This document shows positions 19,867-47,290 of a stretch of DNA of 64,000 nucleotides, piece by piece; within the stretch, counting starts at the first letter, position 1; each line of letters begins with the position of its first letter. A program made the position numbers and the translations under genes. The DNA is from an uncultured Litoreibacter sp. (lineage in GTDB: Bacteria; Pseudomonadota; Alphaproteobacteria; Rhodobacterales; Rhodobacteraceae), in the NCBI GenBank assembly GCA_947504205.1, contig CANNGL010000001.1:496001-560000 (forward strand), given 5' to 3'. The notes below the pieces were generated by a model. It did no database searches, was not told the DNA's origin, and was given only the letters and a program-made list of their open reading frames with translations.

Positions 19867-21957
19867 GTGGCGGGGCGTCCAGAAATCCTGTTTCCCCTGT
19901 TTGGGTCTTTGACCACGCTTCCCGGGATCGGTGATAAAACAGCAATGGCTTTCGAGGGTCTTCATGTCGATAAGCCGAAAGATCTGCTGTTTACCCTGCC
20001 GCAATCAGGAATCGACCGGGCGATCGTCGCAACTGTTCAGGGGCAACCCCTTCCGAAGGTGATCACGGTCGAGGTTGAAATCGGTGCTCACGTGCCACCC
20101 AAATCGCGGGGGCGTCCGTATCATGTGCATGTCAATGACGCACGAGCGGAGTTTCGGCTGATTTTCTTCCACGCGCGCGGTGATTACTTGCAACGCCAGT
20201 TGCCGACAGGGCAGCGCCGCGTCGTCTCGGGCAAGGTTGAGATGTTCGACCACATGGCGCAAATGGTTCACCCTGATCATATAGTGCCGGTCGTACGAGC
20301 TGGCGAAATCCCCGAATTTGAACCGGTTTATCCGCTAACGCACGGAGTCACTCAACGACTCATGCAAAAGGCGGCCGCTGCTGCCGTGGATATGGCACCA
20401 GACCTGTCCGAATGGATTGACCCCGGACAGTTGCAAAAAGCTGGATGGCCTGCTTGGAGGGACGCTATTGATCAGGCGCACCGACCCCAATCGCTCTCGG
20501 ATATCTCTGCAACAACCCCGGTTCGGGAGCGTCTGGCCTATGATGAGTTCTTTGCCCATCAACTGACGCTGGCTTTGGCGCGCATGACTGCGCGCGCCAA
20601 ACCCGGTCGTGCAACAACTGGCACGGGAAAGATGCAGTCGCGCGTCCTTAAGGCGCTTCCGTTTGCACCGACAGGTGCCCAGATCCGCGCCATATCGGAC
20701 ATTGCGGCGGATATGGCCGAACCCACCCGCATGAACCGGCTTTTGCAAGGGGATGTGGGATCGGGCAAAACACTGGTGGCGTTTCAGGCTCTTTTGATTG
20801 CGGTGGAGTCGGGCGGGCAGGGCGTTCTTATGGCCCCGACAGAGATATTGGCGCGCCAGCATCTCGAGAGCCTGCAACCTCTGGCACGGGATGCAGATGT
20901 GCGTCTGGACATTCTGACCGGGCGCGACAAAGGGGCAGAGCGTGCTGAGAAGCTGAAAGCGCTGGCCTGCGGCGATATTCACATTCTTGTCGGGACCCAT
21001 GCCGTGTTTCAGGCAGATGTCGCATTTCAGGACCTGCGCCTTGCCATCATCGACGAACAGCATCGGTTTGGTGTTAATCAGCGGATGGAGCTGAGCGCAA
21101 AGGGACAGGGCACTGATGTGCTGGTGATGACGGCCACCCCCATCCCACGTTCTTTGTCTCTGGCACAGTATGGGGACATGGACGTTTCGATCCTGGATGA
21201 AAAGCCGGCAGGACGTAAACCGATTGCAACGGCCGTGGTCGCGACGGGCCGATTGGACGAAGTGATTGGCAAACTTCAATCGGCGGTTTCCGAGGGGCGA
21301 CAGGCCTATTGGGTGTGCCCGTTGGTTGAGGAAAGTGAGCTCAGCGACAAGATCGCGGCGGAACAACGGTTCAAGGCCCTGCGCGCAGCATTGGGTGAAG
21401 GCATTGTCGGTCTGGTTCACGGACAGATGCCAACCGCGGAGAAAGATGCAGCGATGGCCCGGTTTGTCTCAGGCGAGACAAAGGTATTGGTTGCAACTAC
21501 CGTGATCGAGGTGGGCGTTAACGTTCCCAATGCCACAATCATGGTGATCGAGCGTGCTGAAACCTTTGGTCTTGCTCAGCTGCATCAGCTGCGCGGCCGG
21601 GTTGGGCGGGGTGATGCCGCCTCTACCTGCCTATTGCTCTATCAGGCGCCGCTGTCGCAAACCGCACGGCGCAGGCTGGATATCATGCGACAGACCGAAG
21701 ATGGTTTCCGGATCTCCGAGGAAGATCTTGCGATGCGCGGGGCTGGCGATCTGATTGGCACGGCGCAATCGGGGCTGCCCCGATTCCGCGTGGCAGACAT
21801 GGAAACTCAAACCGCACTCATGGCTGTGGCCCAAACCGATGCGCGCAAACTTTTGAATGATGATCCAACCCTCGAAACACCCCGCGGACAGGCCGCGCGG
21901 CATTTACTTTGGTTAATGGAGCAAGATCGCGCAATACGTTTGATTTCAATCGGTTAG
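19867..21957 (+). CDS. recG: ATP-dependent DNA helicase RecG
   Basis: A 696-residue branch-migration helicase that reverses stalled forks and processes recombination intermediates. N-terminal wedge/OB domain (residues 1-240), then superfamily 2 motifs: Walker A LLQGDVGSGKTLVA, motif Ia APTEILARQH, DEQH box IIDEQHRFG, motif III MTATPIPRSL, motif V VGVNVPNAT and motif VI QLRGRVGRG. The C-terminal TRG region includes RISEEDLAMRGAGDLIGTAQSG. Start is GTG. It is six bases downstream of ligA, a probable operon. The stop is followed by a control region for the 40-residue gene. Confidence 0.96.
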   Translation: MAGRPEILFPLFGSLTTLPGIGDKTAMAFEGLHVDKPKDLLFTLPQSGIDRAIVATVQGQPLPKVITVEVEIGAHVPPKSRGRPYHVHVNDARAEFRLIFFHARGDYLQRQLPTGQRRVVSGKVEMFDHMAQMVHPDHIVPVVRAGEIPEFEPVYPLTHGVTQRLMQKAAAAAVDMAPDLSEWIDPGQLQKAGWPAWRDAIDQAHRPQSLSDISATTPVRERLAYDEFFAHQLTLALARMTARAKPGRATTGTGKMQSRVLKALPFAPTGAQIRAISDIAADMAEPTRMNRLLQGDVGSGKTLVAFQALLIAVESGGQGVLMAPTEILARQHLESLQPLARDADVRLDILTGRDKGAERAEKLKALACGDIHILVGTHAVFQADVAFQDLRLAIIDEQHRFGVNQRMELSAKGQGTDVLVMTATPIPRSLSLAQYGDMDVSILDEKPAGRKPIATAVVATGRLDEVIGKLQSAVSEGRQAYWVCPLVEESELSDKIAAEQRFKALRAALGEGIVGLVHGQMPTAEKDAAMARFVSGETKVLVATTVIEVGVNVPNATIMVIERAETFGLAQLHQLRGRVGRGDAASTCLLLYQAPLSQTARRRLDIMRQTEDGFRISEEDLAMRGAGDLIGTAQSGLPRFRVADMETQTALMAVAQTDARKLLNDDPTLETPRGQAARHLLWLMEQDRAIRLISIG

Positions 21958-21986: not shown

Positions 21987-22011
21987 GTTCACAAATGTTC
22001 TTAAAAAGTTC
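21987..22011 (+). promoter_or_regulatory. Candidate LexA (SOS) box with a third in-phase half-site
   Basis: GTTC-N7-GTTC occurs at 21997-22011 (spacer TTAAAAA), the exact LexA recognition format of alphaproteobacteria. A further GTTC at 21987-21990 precedes it by six spacer bases, so three half-sites recur at 10 and 11 base steps. It lies 80 bases upstream of the ATG of the 40-residue membrane protein gene. Confidence 0.6.
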
Positions 22012-22090
22012 TTTACAAGTGCGGCGCAAAATGAGAACAAAGAAGCAACAAAAACACCGCCCAACAAAATACCAATATTGAGGTTCTGCC

Positions 22091-22213
22091 ATGATCGATG
22101 ACATCAAACTCATTCTGACCCGTTCCCCGAAAGCACTTGCTCAAGATGCAGCCGGGATTGCCGCGATTGGTGTGATGATGACCGTCGGGCTGCACCTTCC
22201 AACCATGTTTTAA
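22091..22213 (+). CDS. 40-residue single-pass membrane protein, possibly SOS-regulated
   Basis: ATG 22091 to TAA 22213 encodes a 40-residue protein. Residues 1-20 are amphipathic (MIDDIKLILTRSPKALAQDA) and 21-40 form one hydrophobic helix ending HLPTMF. GAGG precedes the ATG by about 7 bases. The AT-rich leader carries a LexA-type box, and a strong terminator at 22363 would end the transcript. I believe similar short proteins occur in other Rhodobacterales, an unverified recollection. By analogy with SidA of Caulobacter, a 29-residue SOS-induced membrane protein that blocks division through FtsW/FtsN, this is a candidate damage-induced division inhibitor; sequence similarity to SidA is not claimed. 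Confidence 0.65.
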   Translation: MIDDIKLILTRSPKALAQDAAGIAAIGVMMTVGLHLPTMF

Positions 22214-22362
22214 CCAGTTCGCCCGTTAACTGCCTGCTGTCTGATTGAAAACTCTCTCCCGGGCTGTCCCGTTCCCGTCAGAGATAAGGCGCTATTGTCC
22301 CCAACATGTATGCCGGTCTGCCTCAACCGCCGGCGCGCCTGACCTTTCAAGACACGCTACCT
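22214..22362. other. Gene-free stretch, possible 3' UTR or small RNA
   Basis: No convincing protein-coding frame. A short hairpin with arms GCCGG and CCGGC occurs near 22311-22336, and a TATTGT hexamer near 22282 could be a -10 box. Together with the terminator at 22363 this could be either the 3' leader of the 40-residue gene or an independent RNA of about 100 bases. Confidence 0.3.
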
Positions 22363-22396
22363 AGACCGTCGCATCCCCAATGCGGCGGTCTTTTTT
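22363..22396 (+). terminator. Rho-independent terminator
   Basis: AGACCGTCGCA and TGCGGCGGTCT form an 11-pair stem (one G-U) with a TCCCCAA loop, followed by six T. Orientation is plus, so it ends a transcript coming from the 40-residue gene or a small RNA. Confidence 0.85.
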
Positions 22397-22414: not shown

Positions 22415-22867
22415 TCAGGCACAGGCGGTCTCGGAGGCCGCATCTATCGCTTCAAGAGTGGCTTCCAATGCCAGGAGAATGGAAGCGTGGCGATTTTTGT
22501 AATCGCGCGCAGGCTCCAGTATTTTCAAGCCGTCGAATGGGGCGTCGGGGGCAGGGCCGTCCGATTTCAACATGGCTTTGAGTTGATCGCGGGCCGTCTC
22601 AACCTCTTGGCGGCTGCGTCCAATGATCGATTTACCCACAACCGAGGCTGATGCTTGCCCAAGCGCACATGCTTTGACGTCCTGTCCAAAAGTCGCGATC
22701 CGTCCGTCTTCCAAGGTTACATCGACGGATACGGTTGACCCACATAACGGCGCGCGGCGCCGCGCGGATCCATCCGGGTTCTCCAGACGCTCCGCAAAGG
22801 GAATGTCCGCCGCAAGCGCCAGAATTTGGCCCGAGTAAAGCTTTATCAGATCGGAATTTTCGCTCAC
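22415..22867 (-). CDS. IscU/NifU-like iron-sulfur scaffold protein
   Basis: A 150-residue protein with the IscU-type N-terminal fold. LIKLYSGQILALAADIPFAERL is the first helix, PLCGSTVSVDVTLEDGRIATFGQDVKACALGQASASV carries two of the three cluster-binding cysteines (LCGS and KACAL), and the C-terminus ends in an ACA. The third cysteine is not at the classical position, as in other alphaproteobacterial proteins of this branch. Function is presumably transient Fe-S cluster assembly or delivery. It is divergent from hisI. Confidence 0.8.
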   Translation of the reverse strand: MSENSDLIKLYSGQILALAADIPFAERLENPDGSARRRAPLCGSTVSVDVTLEDGRIATFGQDVKACALGQASASVVGKSIIGRSRQEVETARDQLKAMLKSDGPAPDAPFDGLKILEPARDYKNRHASILLALEATLEAIDAASETACA

Positions 22868-26242: not shown

Positions 26243-28987
26243 TTATTCTTCTGAGGTCTCATCCGCGTCTTCGGCGTCTTCCTCTCCCTGATCGGCGATG
26301 CGGGCAACCGAGACGACGGTTTCCCCTTTGCCAGTGTCAAAGACCTTCACGCCGCCTGCAGACCGCGATCTGAATGAAATGCCATCAACGAGGGTGCGGA
26401 TGGATTGACCTTTTGAGGTCGCCAACATGATCTGGTCGTCAAGCTCAACAGGGAAGGACGCAATGATATTGCCACCCCGCATGGCCTTGTCCATTGCGGT
26501 GACGCCCATGCCGCCGCGTCCGCGAACGGGATAGTCATGGGACGAGCTTGTCTTTCCGGCGCCGCCATCGGTGATCGTCAGGATCAGATCTTCCGCCGCC
26601 GACATCTCTGCATAGCGCTCCTGGGTGATAGCGCCCTCGATTTGTTCCTCGTCATCAGCTTCAGCATCATCTCCTAAACCCATGACAGCGCGACGCATTT
26701 TCAGATAACCTGCACGTTCTTCAGGGGTAGCGACGAAGTGGCGGATCACCGACATCGAGACCACGTGCTGGCCCTCGGCAAGTTTGATACCACGAACACC
26801 TGTCGAATTCCGACCTGCAAAAACCCGGACATCCGTGGCGCGGAAGCGGATGGCGCGCCCGGCATTCGTCACAAGCATCACGTCATCATCCTCGCTACAG
26901 ATGCGTGCATTTACCAGCTCCACACCGTCTGGCAATTTCATCGCGATTTTGCCGTTGCGCATGACATTCGTGAAATCGGACAGCGCGTTGCGGCGCACGT
27001 CGCCTTGTGTCGTTGCAAATACGATTTGCAGATCGCCCCAGTCTTCCTCGTCCCGGTCCACCGGCATGATAGCGGCGATCGAAACGCCTTGCGGGATCGG
27101 CAATATGTTGACGATCGCTTTGCCTTTGGAGGTCCGCCCCCCTTGCGGCAAGCGCCATGTCTTCAGCTTGTAGACCATACCATCGGTCGTGAAGAACAGC
27201 AGTTGCGTGTGGGTGTTGGCCACAAACAGGGTTGTGACGGTATCGTCCTCTTTTAATGCCCCACCTGACAGCCCTTTGCCGCCGCGCTTTTGCGCCCGGA
27301 AATCGGCCAGTGCGGTGCGCTTGATATATCCTCCGGAGGTTACAGTGACGACCATATCTTCCTTCTCGATAAGGTCCTCGTCCTCCATGTCGCCAGACCA
27401 ATCAACAATCTCGGAGCGGCGTGGAACTGCAAACTGCTCCTTCACCTCCCGCAACTCGGTAGAAATGATCTCCATGATCCGTTCGCGAGATCGAAGAATA
27501 TCGAGGTATTCCTTGATCTTACCCGCAAGTTCTTCAAGTTCGTCAGTGACTTCCTTAACGCCGATCTGCGTCAGACGTTGCAGGCGCAGATCAAGAATCG
27601 CACGAGCCTGAATCTCGGACAGGTTATAGGTTCCGTCGTCATTCACCTTATGGGTCGGATCATCGATAAGTTTGATGTAGTCGACAATCTCGTGGGCAGG
27701 CCAAGCGCGTGTCATCAACTTGTGACGGGCTTCCGCGGCATCGGCAGAGGCGCGGATGGTTGCAACCACCTCATCAACGTTCGAGACCGCCACAGCCAAA
27801 CCGCACAAAACATGCGAGCGCTCGCGCGCTTTGCGCAGCTCATAGGCGGTCCTACGCGCAACAACTTCTTCGCGGAAGGCTATGAAATTCGTCAGAAAAC
27901 TGCGCAGCGTCAGGGTTTCCGGCCGCCCGCCATTGAGTGCCAGCATATTGCAGGAGAAATAGGTTTGCATTGGCGTAAACCGGAAGAGCTGGTTCAGAAC
28001 CACCTCTGCCGTGGCATCCCGCTTCAGCTCGACCACGACGCGCACGCCGACGCGGTCGCTTTCGTCCTGCACGTGCGAGATACCCTCGATCTTCTTGTCT
28101 CGCGCGGCCTCGGCGATCCGCTCGATCATTGTGGCCTTGTTCACCTGATAAGGAATCTCATCAATGATGATCGCCCAGCGATCTTTGCGTATTTCTTCCG
28201 TGTGGGTCTTGGCACGAACAATGACCGAACCGCGGCTCTCGGTGTAGGCCTTGCGGGCGCCTGCGCGGCCCAGAACGATCCCACCCGTTGGGAAATCCGG
28301 GGCGGGGACATATTCGATCAAGTCTTCTGACGACAGGTCGGGGCTTTCGATCAGCGCCAGGGTCGCATCGATCACCTCACCCAGATTGTGCGGCGGAATA
28401 TTCGTGGCCATCCCAACCGCGATACCGCCTGCACCATTAACCAGCATATTGGGGAAACGTGCGGGCAGAACTGTGGGCTCGCGGTCCTTGCCGTCGTAGT
28501 TGTCCTGAAAGTTGACAGTGTCTTTGTCGATGTCAGCAAGGATGGCAGCAGCCGGCTTGTCCATCCGCACTTCGGTGTAACGCATCGCGGCCGGGTTATC
28601 ACCGTCCATCGAGCCGAAATTGCCCTGTCCGTCCAGAAGCGGCAGCGACATCGAAAAGTCCTGCGCCATGCGCACAAGCGCGTCATAGATCGCGCCATCG
28701 CCATGGGGGTGGTATTTCCCCATCACATCGCCGACAGGGCGTGCAGATTTGCGATAAGACTTATCGTGAGTGTTATTGGTCTCGTGCATTGCATAGAGGA
28801 TCCGCCGGTGCACCGGTTTCAGCCCATCACGAAGATCAGGGATTGCACGGGAGATAATCACCGACATCGCGTAGTCGATGAAAGAGGTCTTCATCTCGTC
28901 GGTAATATTGACCTGGGGGCCATCGAATTCCATCCGCTGCGGCGGGAGGTCATCTTCATTTTCCGGGGTGTCTGGCGTGTCGCTCAC
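26243..28987 (-). CDS. gyrA: DNA gyrase subunit A
   Basis: A 914-residue type II topoisomerase subunit that cuts and rejoins DNA for negative supercoiling. Winged-helix/catalytic domain with active Tyr137 in [10 protein letters not shown], then the coiled tower and six GyrA blades from about residue 530, including the GyrA-box-like [11 protein letters not shown]. The C-terminal tail is acidic ([14 protein letters not shown]). In the quinolone pocket [17 protein letters not shown], the residue equivalent to E. coli Ser83 is Gly98 (codon 28696-28694), while the Asp87 equivalent is kept. A promoter-like sequence lies upstream; a REP-like element follows. Confidence 0.97.
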
Positions 28988-46525: not shown

Positions 46526-47290
46526 ATGGGTATCAAGGCATTAGTTGCCTCGAGTGCTATAGCTGTTTGTATGACAGCAACCGCAGGAATCGCTGCGACA
46601 GTTCACACCTCATTCGATTTTACGGGTCCAAATAACAGTTCGTTGGGGGATACAACGTTTACTTCCGGTAGCGGGCTTTCCGTGGATGTGTCGGCAAGTC
46701 GTGAGCGTGGTTCCGATGGCAAGCTGAAACCAGGTACGGCAGTTCTGGGCCAGTATGGTGGTGGGCTGGGTGTATGCTCCTCCGTAGGGTTCAATCAAGG
46801 TTCGAGCGATTGCGGATATAAGAGGGTAAAAGACTACTACAGCTACTACAAGCAAAAGTGGATCTATAAAACTGTATCGGCCGATGACCATCAGGTTGAC
46901 GGTAACAACCCTGACGAAGTTGTGCTGTTTGACTTTGGTGATACCGATGTAACGCTTAAAAGCGTTACCTTAAGCTTTATCGGTTATAATGATCAGTTTT
47001 CGTTCTCGTTCTTTGGCGATCCGGATTCGGCAACGCCGACGAACTTCTACCCGTCTGTTGATCCAAGCGGTTCGGGCACTGTGACCTACACGTTTAACCA
47101 AACCTGGACGGGCTCGATGTTCGGAATTGGGGCAACTGGTCACAACGACGAATTCAAAATCCGTAGTTTGCACGTGAAGTATGACGACGATCAAAACCAA
47201 CCTGATCCAGTACCGCTGCCAGCGGGTGGCGTGCTGCTTCTGACAGGTCTGGGTGCTTTGGCGATGCGTCGCCGTGCGTCCAAGGGCTAA
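46526..47290 (+). CDS. Secreted VPLPA-CTERM sorting-domain protein
   Basis: A 254-residue protein with a signal peptide (about residues 1-23), a beta-rich middle part with FDFGDTDVTLKSVTLSFIGYNDQFSFSFFGDPDS, and a Tyr-rich insertion KDYYSYYKQKWIYK. The C-terminus has the VPLPAGGVLLLTGLGALA helix followed by MRRR, the VPLPA-CTERM signal of Rhodobacteraceae. Exosortase-type enzymes cleave such signals for surface display or polysaccharide attachment; no exosortase is in the window. Likely extracellular or matrix protein. Confidence 0.88.
   Translation: MGIKALVASSAIAVCMTATAGIAATVHTSFDFTGPNNSSLGDTTFTSGSGLSVDVSASRERGSDGKLKPGTAVLGQYGGGLGVCSSVGFNQGSSDCGYKRVKDYYSYYKQKWIYKTVSADDHQVDGNNPDEVVLFDFGDTDVTLKSVTLSFIGYNDQFSFSFFGDPDSATPTNFYPSVDPSGSGTVTYTFNQTWTGSMFGIGATGHNDEFKIRSLHVKYDDDQNQPDPVPLPAGGVLLLTGLGALAMRRRASKG

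Follow-up and report, generated by a model that had tools for sequence, protein, structure and literature searches.

We report, downstream of recG in an uncultured Litoreibacter sp., a gene for a small membrane protein that is predicted to be SOS-controlled and whose transcript would carry a covarying structured RNA at its 3' end. The LexA reading of its operator is strongly supported, because the box is conserved in front of the frame and its triple geometry is shared with lexA, and the gene has the appearance of a genuine component of the damage response that has so far escaped study. The locus was analyzed within a window of 64,000 nucleotides (the whole stretch of DNA under study, to which all plain coordinates refer), and its features are collected in Table 1.

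Table 1. Features of the locus in window coordinates.
Feature	Position	Strand	Remarks
recG stop codon	21955-21957	+	recG frame 19867-21957 (presumed identity)
Triple LexA-type operator, GTTC-N6-GTTC-N7-GTTC	21987-22011	+	core box GTTCTTAAAAAGTTC at 21997-22011; extra GTTC at 21987-21990
TTTACA, putative -35 touching the operator	22012-22017	+	presumed promoter role
Second, degenerate LexA-like element, GAAC-N7-CAAC	22035-22049	+	
GAGG, putative ribosome-binding site	22080-22083	+	7 nt before ATG; predicted from the sequence
40-residue protein frame, MIDDIKLILTRSPKALAQDAAGIAAIGVMMTVGLHLPTMF	22091-22213	+	
Predicted membrane helix, codons 20-37	22148-22201	+	hydropathy; AlphaFold2 helix 13-39
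Structured 3' RNA	22230-22396	+	CUGCCUG 5' tail, closing helix P1, three hairpins, terminator
Intrinsic terminator	22364-22396	+	stem 22364-22390, then TTTTTT

A sequence-only reading of this DNA had described a GTTC-N7-GTTC box with a third GTTC before it, a 40-residue frame with one hydrophobic helix, a terminator downstream and recG just upstream. All of these were recovered: the box and the third half-site are both where it had placed them, hydropathy and AlphaFold2 agree on the helix, the terminator stem runs into its T tract, and the upstream frame, which we take to be recG from its similarity and from that same reading, ends shortly before the operator. The structured 3' RNA and the second degenerate operator had been overlooked. 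The extra half-site starts 10 bases before the start of the core box, which leaves the N6 gap, and no clear -10 element was recognized behind TTTACA.

The comparisons were made within the family of the source organism (Roseobacteraceae in the NCBI taxonomy), from which 394 genomes were drawn. From them and the window, 107 distinct loci were assembled (the own locus plus relatives, L021 being left out as a second copy of L018). Sixty of these loci were hand-picked from the listed protein matches with E < 7e-11, and the whole set consists of the better-scoring protein matches, hence it is biased towards well conserved cases. A recG-type C-terminus was recognized upstream of the peptide frame in 93 of the 107.

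The operator motif taken alone is not rare, since three copies of GTTC-N7-GTTC were found in the 64-kb window for 2.2 expected. The other two copies, at 28216-28230 (in a gyrase-like frame, 26243-28987) and at 46789-46803 (in the frame 46526-47290, with VPLPAGGVLLLTGLGALAMRRR as its tail), are inside long open frames and look like chance occurrences. The count of triple sites is by itself equally unremarkable, because the 3.79-Mb genome has two of them, against five for the same pattern read backwards. The only other triple site of the genome, with identical N6 and N7 gaps, is located directly before lexA (G000:C1:625755-626441, minus strand; G000 is the genome of the window). The sequence-only reading had made its proposal depend on the frame and the box being kept in relatives, and both are: the protein was found in 327 of the 394 family genomes, and 106 of the 107 loci have the box in the 300 nt that precede the start codon, whereas the adjoining 300 nt further upstream contain it in none of the 107 and 300 nt downstream in one. 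The triple operator is present in 93 of the 107 loci, TTTAC directly follows 95 of the boxes in these loci, and the distance of the second element, GAAC-N7-CAAC, is constant to within one base in 90 of the 107. The earlier assignment of the box to the LexA type is thus borne out, as a prediction, by the box and triple-site counts and by the geometry equal to that of lexA.

The promoters of lexA and recA were compared across the family. Among the 30 best-scoring family lexA matches (L220-L249), GAAC-N7-GAAC was found before 29 and the triple GAAC-N7-GAAC-N6/7-GAAC before 19, the latter being the mirror image of the operator of the peptide gene. While the alphaproteobacterial LexA box usually has two half-sites, lexA promoters of this family often carry three direct GAAC half-sites; for Caulobacter, the published consensus for LexA is (T/A)TGTTC-N6-TGTTC (PMC13384398). 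Upstream of recA, GAAC-N7-GAAC was present in all 20 genomes studied (L065-L084), with a GTTC half-site further upstream detected by eye, and the second element of the peptide gene resembles this recA box. By eye, 11 of these 20 recA promoters also show a degenerate GTTC-N7-GATC upstream of the perfect box, just after a TTGAAA-like sequence.

These data bear on whether the operator could belong to another repressor that recognizes GTTC half-sites, in such a way that the gene would fall outside the SOS response. The conserved spacer (mostly TTAAAAA or TCAAAAA) and the third and fourth half-sites exceed a minimal LexA box, and in three drafts where no lexA match was found (G105/L300, G194/L301 and G231/L302) the triple site and the second element are both intact, as such a repressor would allow; the equal triple geometry at lexA and the related second element at recA, however, make this explanation very improbable. 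lexA was found in 378 of the 394 family genomes and nine of the 16 without a match are less than 90% complete, and in the three drafts an assembly gap is likelier than a loss of lexA. Their intact operators are not the decay expected from a true loss of LexA, and are no help to the LexA reading either. From the conserved motifs, LexA very probably controls the promoter of the peptide gene.

The protein is a property of the family. In a set of 41 genomes it was found in 20. Of these, 19 belong to the genus, which supplied 21 genomes with that of the window counted in, and the remaining one comes from elsewhere in the family; the two genus genomes without a match are 79% and 57% complete. Matches on named contigs were 59-78% identical over 14 contigs, 13 of them named Litoreibacter. 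A class-wide draw of 289 genomes gave six matches, of which four fell in the own family and two were weak and lay within long frames; outside the family, none of the matches to the protein profile in this draw was convincing. The 19 genus copies differ pairwise at 1739, 941 and 3601 sites in the first, second and third codon positions, respectively, and 79% of their one-base codon changes are synonymous, versus 25% for random changes, so the frame is under purifying selection. The length is 40 residues in 87 of the 94 listed members and 39 in the other seven (one row was read without a start codon). Four residues are nearly invariant among these 94, Asp19 (91 members), Gly22 (92), Leu34 (92) and Pro37 (92), and Lys and Arg are absent from the last eight residues of the listed members. 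AlphaFold2, run with 15 sequences, predicted helices at residues 2-11 and 13-39 with a mean pLDDT of 84. A single-pass membrane helix with the N-terminus inside would fit these features.

The protein of the window had no family in Pfam, NCBIfam, PHROGs or PADLOC, the NCBIfam match being far below the cut-off; a Pfam Baculo_11_kDa match was obtained with one of 35 members (E 0.004) and was taken as chance. The lack of a convincing family in these collections and a length of only 40 codons are what one would also find for a spurious frame, or an ordinary short leader frame, in front of a terminator. This explanation is already contradicted by the synonymous excess, by the fixed length and by the absence of a following gene in the same direction in the window, where the downstream neighbor (frame 22415-22867) is on the minus strand, and we give it hardly any credence. 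That the gene encodes a translated membrane peptide is almost certain.

In the loci read, the RNA lies 3' of the frame and on its strand. As judged by eye, what follows the frame is in most loci the succession CTGCCTGCG, stem, CTGTCCC hairpin, TGCCTGTCC hairpin, GCCTC hairpin, stem and terminator, and the loops of the three hairpins in the window are CUGUCC, UUGUCCCC and CUGCCUC. The terminator anchor was located in 101 of the 107 loci, and the 5' anchor as well in 95 of those. In these 95 RNAs, the unpaired motifs CTGCCTG and CTGTCC were present in 86 and 73, respectively. A first alignment of 32 RNAs with MAFFT and RNAalifold showed the terminator only, because the helix lengths vary. The helices were also compared by exchanging the 3' arms among loci. 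The closing helix P1 gave -17.3 kcal/mol with its own arms and -11.4 with swapped arms (80 sequences), P2 gave -11.4 versus -7.8 kcal/mol (83 sequences), and P3 -9.6 versus -8.2 kcal/mol (74 sequences), a smaller effect; a control with shuffled arms gave the same picture for the three helices. The figures for P4 were set aside, as some rows were anchored in the terminator (L033, L101 and L119, for example), and the support for this helix is that of helix 9 in the covariance pair counts.

For these counts, a covariance model was built from ten sequences and searched against 99 sources, the window plus 98 loci, with eight genus loci left out. It matched 98 of the 99, although several of the weak matches depend mainly on the terminator and the match of the window itself is partial. 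The source without a match, L103 (genome G172), keeps GTTC-N7-GTTC and a 40-residue frame, and has an AT-rich 3' region after the stop codon. The resulting alignment of 100 rows includes two matches on the opposite strand (L035 and L122) and some partial rows. In it, 91.5% of the cells pair, versus 73.0% in shuffles, and 38 of the 41 pairs change on both sides, versus 29.3 in shuffles. The cells changed on both sides amount to 593, versus 148 in shuffles, and sliding the partner abolishes the excess; all these comparisons are favored by the fact that the alignment was fitted to the structure. The RNA of the window folds at -57.0 kcal/mol, compared with -43.7 (sd 3.9) for its shuffles. No Rfam family reached the cut-off with it, the nearest being the Caulobacter sRNA CC1840 (20.7 bits versus the 50 needed, E 1.6), and none was found at E up to 1 for the RNA in six loci.

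A refined model, which contains the partial row of the window, recovered the RNA in its own genome (G000:C1:518230-518395, equal to window 22230-22395) with an E of 2e-7. A second match in the same genome (C3:17422-17492, E 1.6e-4) was rejected as the ordinary terminator of another gene, so the weak matches among the 310 of 394 family genomes in which this model found the RNA may include terminators. By hand comparison, 23 genomes have an RNA match without a protein match, and 350 of the 394 have one or both, some of the RNA matches being possibly terminators only. Three of those 23, with strong RNA scores, were examined, and each has both operator elements together with a divergent frame of 39-40 residues. 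There is little room for doubt that this is a functional structured RNA.

With covariation this strong and its unpaired C-rich motifs conserved, the RNA could be regarded as the main product and the peptide as accessory, in which case the locus would be an SOS-induced coding sRNA that represses several mRNAs by masking their ribosome-binding sites with those motifs. There is a precedent in Pos19 of Rhodobacter sphaeroides, a coding sRNA controlled by RpoE in oxidative stress, where regulation persists without translation (PMC5036791). Both are short transcripts, stress-induced in Pos19 and predicted to be so here, that combine a small frame with sRNA activity, putative in our locus, and both come from the same order; Pos19 differs in its control by RpoE. 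Against a mere accessory role, the peptide is under purifying selection and has 39-40 residues in all 94 listed members, so it is not dispensable, and we consider this explanation rather unlikely. Sequence selection of two independent kinds, on codons and on base pairs, instead argues for two products. Small RNAs with C-rich loops and UCCC motifs are known in S. aureus and in Listeria (LhrC); in them, too, more than one hairpin loop displays a C-rich motif able to pair with ribosome-binding sites, but they belong to another lineage, whereas the Litoreibacter RNA is attached to a protein-coding mRNA behind a LexA-type box.

The arrangement of an mRNA that follows a LexA-type box and finishes in a structured, terminator-bearing 3' end is also that of DinR of Klebsiella pneumoniae, which is the 3' end of the LexA-controlled dinI mRNA and represses ftsZ (PMC10907235). 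In both cases a small-protein mRNA under LexA, demonstrated or predicted, has a 3' part with a regulatory role, putative in our locus. DinI, however, is a modulator of RecA, not a membrane peptide, and the ftsZ-pairing stretch of DinR is specific to Klebsiella, whereas the Litoreibacter RNA is family-wide and covarying and its pairing with ftsZ is only a candidate. On account of DinR, ftsZ was chosen as one candidate gene and inspected in 20 genomes (L160-L179). The ftsZ ribosome-binding site varies unusually little, the typical sequence in front of the ATG being ACAGGCGGACAG, and the CUGCCUG of the RNA can pair with CAGGCGG using one U-G pair. The motif CAGGC(A/G)G was found in 18 of the 20 ftsZ sites versus five of the 709 start regions of G000 and G342, a post hoc count, as the wobble motif was formulated after the ftsZ sites had been seen. 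One of those five is ftsZ itself and another a miscalled ftsQ start, and others may be misplaced too, the 709 regions having been called by a simple script. The presence of CAGGCGG at ftsZ in 18 of 20 family genomes goes beyond a normal Shine-Dalgarno sequence. The strict Watson-Crick motifs GGGACAG, CAGGCAG, GAGGCA, GGCAGG and GGGGAC were absent from all 20 ftsZ sites, AGGCAG was found in one, and GGACAG in nine once the start of L161 was corrected (eight before).

In terms of pairing energy, ftsZ is placed around the 10th percentile (median 0.099 over the 20 genomes), compared with 0.389 for recA (13 of 20 genomes) and 0.377 for shuffled segments; it ranks 25th of 322 in G342, and in G000 it was not listed by the script. 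Outside the family, 12 ftsZ start regions were inspected and none showed the motif; at least three of the 12 have a doubtful start call. Within the family, at least eight of the 18 genomes in which no module was detected have it, and three more were added by eye with other start codons. The motif thus follows the family and not the module. As a second target ftsQ was discarded: the G342 start bearing CAGGCGG was miscalled, and the likely starts are GGAGG-like in most genomes (by eye). Nor was the motif seen in the ftsA start regions found by the script. The complementarity of the RNA to the ftsZ ribosome-binding site is therefore presented as suggestive only.

The peptide has its own known counterparts. 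SidA of Caulobacter crescentus is very small and located in the membrane. Its loss relieves filamentation in a lexA mutant (PMC13384398). SidA is characterized by very small size, a membrane helix and a LexA-type box in front of the gene, TisB and DinQ are single-helix peptides behind such a box too, and both descriptions fit the Litoreibacter gene; unlike at sidA, a structured RNA follows the frame in Litoreibacter, and the likeness to SidA is one of size, helix and box. For a membrane peptide produced only upon damage, the simplest interpretation is that it would slow division or growth, and a role like that of SidA is plausible. A toxin that depolarizes the membrane would fit the peptide equally well. 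Escherichia coli TisB is an SOS-regulated single-helix membrane peptide, and type I toxins are usually patchy in their spread. DinQ of the same species is likewise an SOS-regulated single-helix membrane peptide (PMC3567139), and LexA-type control of a single-helix peptide of 40 residues is the DinQ layout too. A toxin of this type would depolarize the inner membrane and slow metabolism once damage has occurred, with the RNA, which indeed lies 3' of the frame and on its strand in the loci read, tuning only the translation or stability of its own mRNA. The peptide gene is, however, nearly always single copy, kept in most family genomes and mostly beside recG (93 of 107 loci), which is not the patchy spread of such toxins; and the RNA has no preference for its own ribosome-binding site over those of other loci (the own energy was lower in 52 of 95). 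The tisB and dinQ genes are accompanied by antisense RNAs; no antitoxin was identified at our locus, where the 3' RNA was the candidate considered. We therefore judge the toxin explanation unlikely.

Our preferred reading is an SOS-induced transcript with a dual output, peptide and regulatory RNA, that delays growth or division; we hold it tentatively, as short of probable. In the undamaged cell LexA would keep the transcript very low, and upon DNA damage the RecA-driven cleavage of LexA would release it. The peptide would then insert into the inner membrane with its N-terminus inside, where Asp19, Gly22, Leu34 and Pro37 could bind a partner integral to the membrane, most likely a component of the divisome, in such a way that division would be held back until repair. 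A delay of growth or division exerted by the peptide is, taken separately, quite conceivable without being the probable outcome. The tail of the RNA may in turn pair through its CUGCCUG and CUGUCC motifs, in trans, with ribosome-binding sites, ftsZ being the leading candidate; action in trans is a possibility that we advance with reserve. The strongest version, a family-wide SOS checkpoint in which the peptide jams the divisome and the 3' RNA, with its several CUGCCUG/CUGUCC motifs, shuts off ftsZ translation by covering the unusual CAGGCGGAC ribosome-binding site, is improbable as it stands. If true, a protein and an RNA from one transcript would hit one process at two levels, and judging by the searched literature no SOS control of division would have been described for Rhodobacterales before.

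No description of the peptide gene or of the RNA was found in the literature searched, which is weak evidence, given that subscription papers were mostly outside its coverage. A prediction of LexA sites in D. shibae names lexA, recA, dprA and others, and its main text makes no mention of recG (PMC6473078). The locus adds a protein family that went unrecognized by the Pfam and NCBIfam models in our searches and a structured RNA that went unrecognized by those of Rfam, both present in most of the family genomes examined, and its operator, peptide and RNA are short enough for direct testing. Rhodobacterales are an abundant marine group that includes Rhodobacter capsulatus, the model for gene transfer agents, and the locus offers a conserved candidate for how these bacteria may stop dividing after DNA damage.
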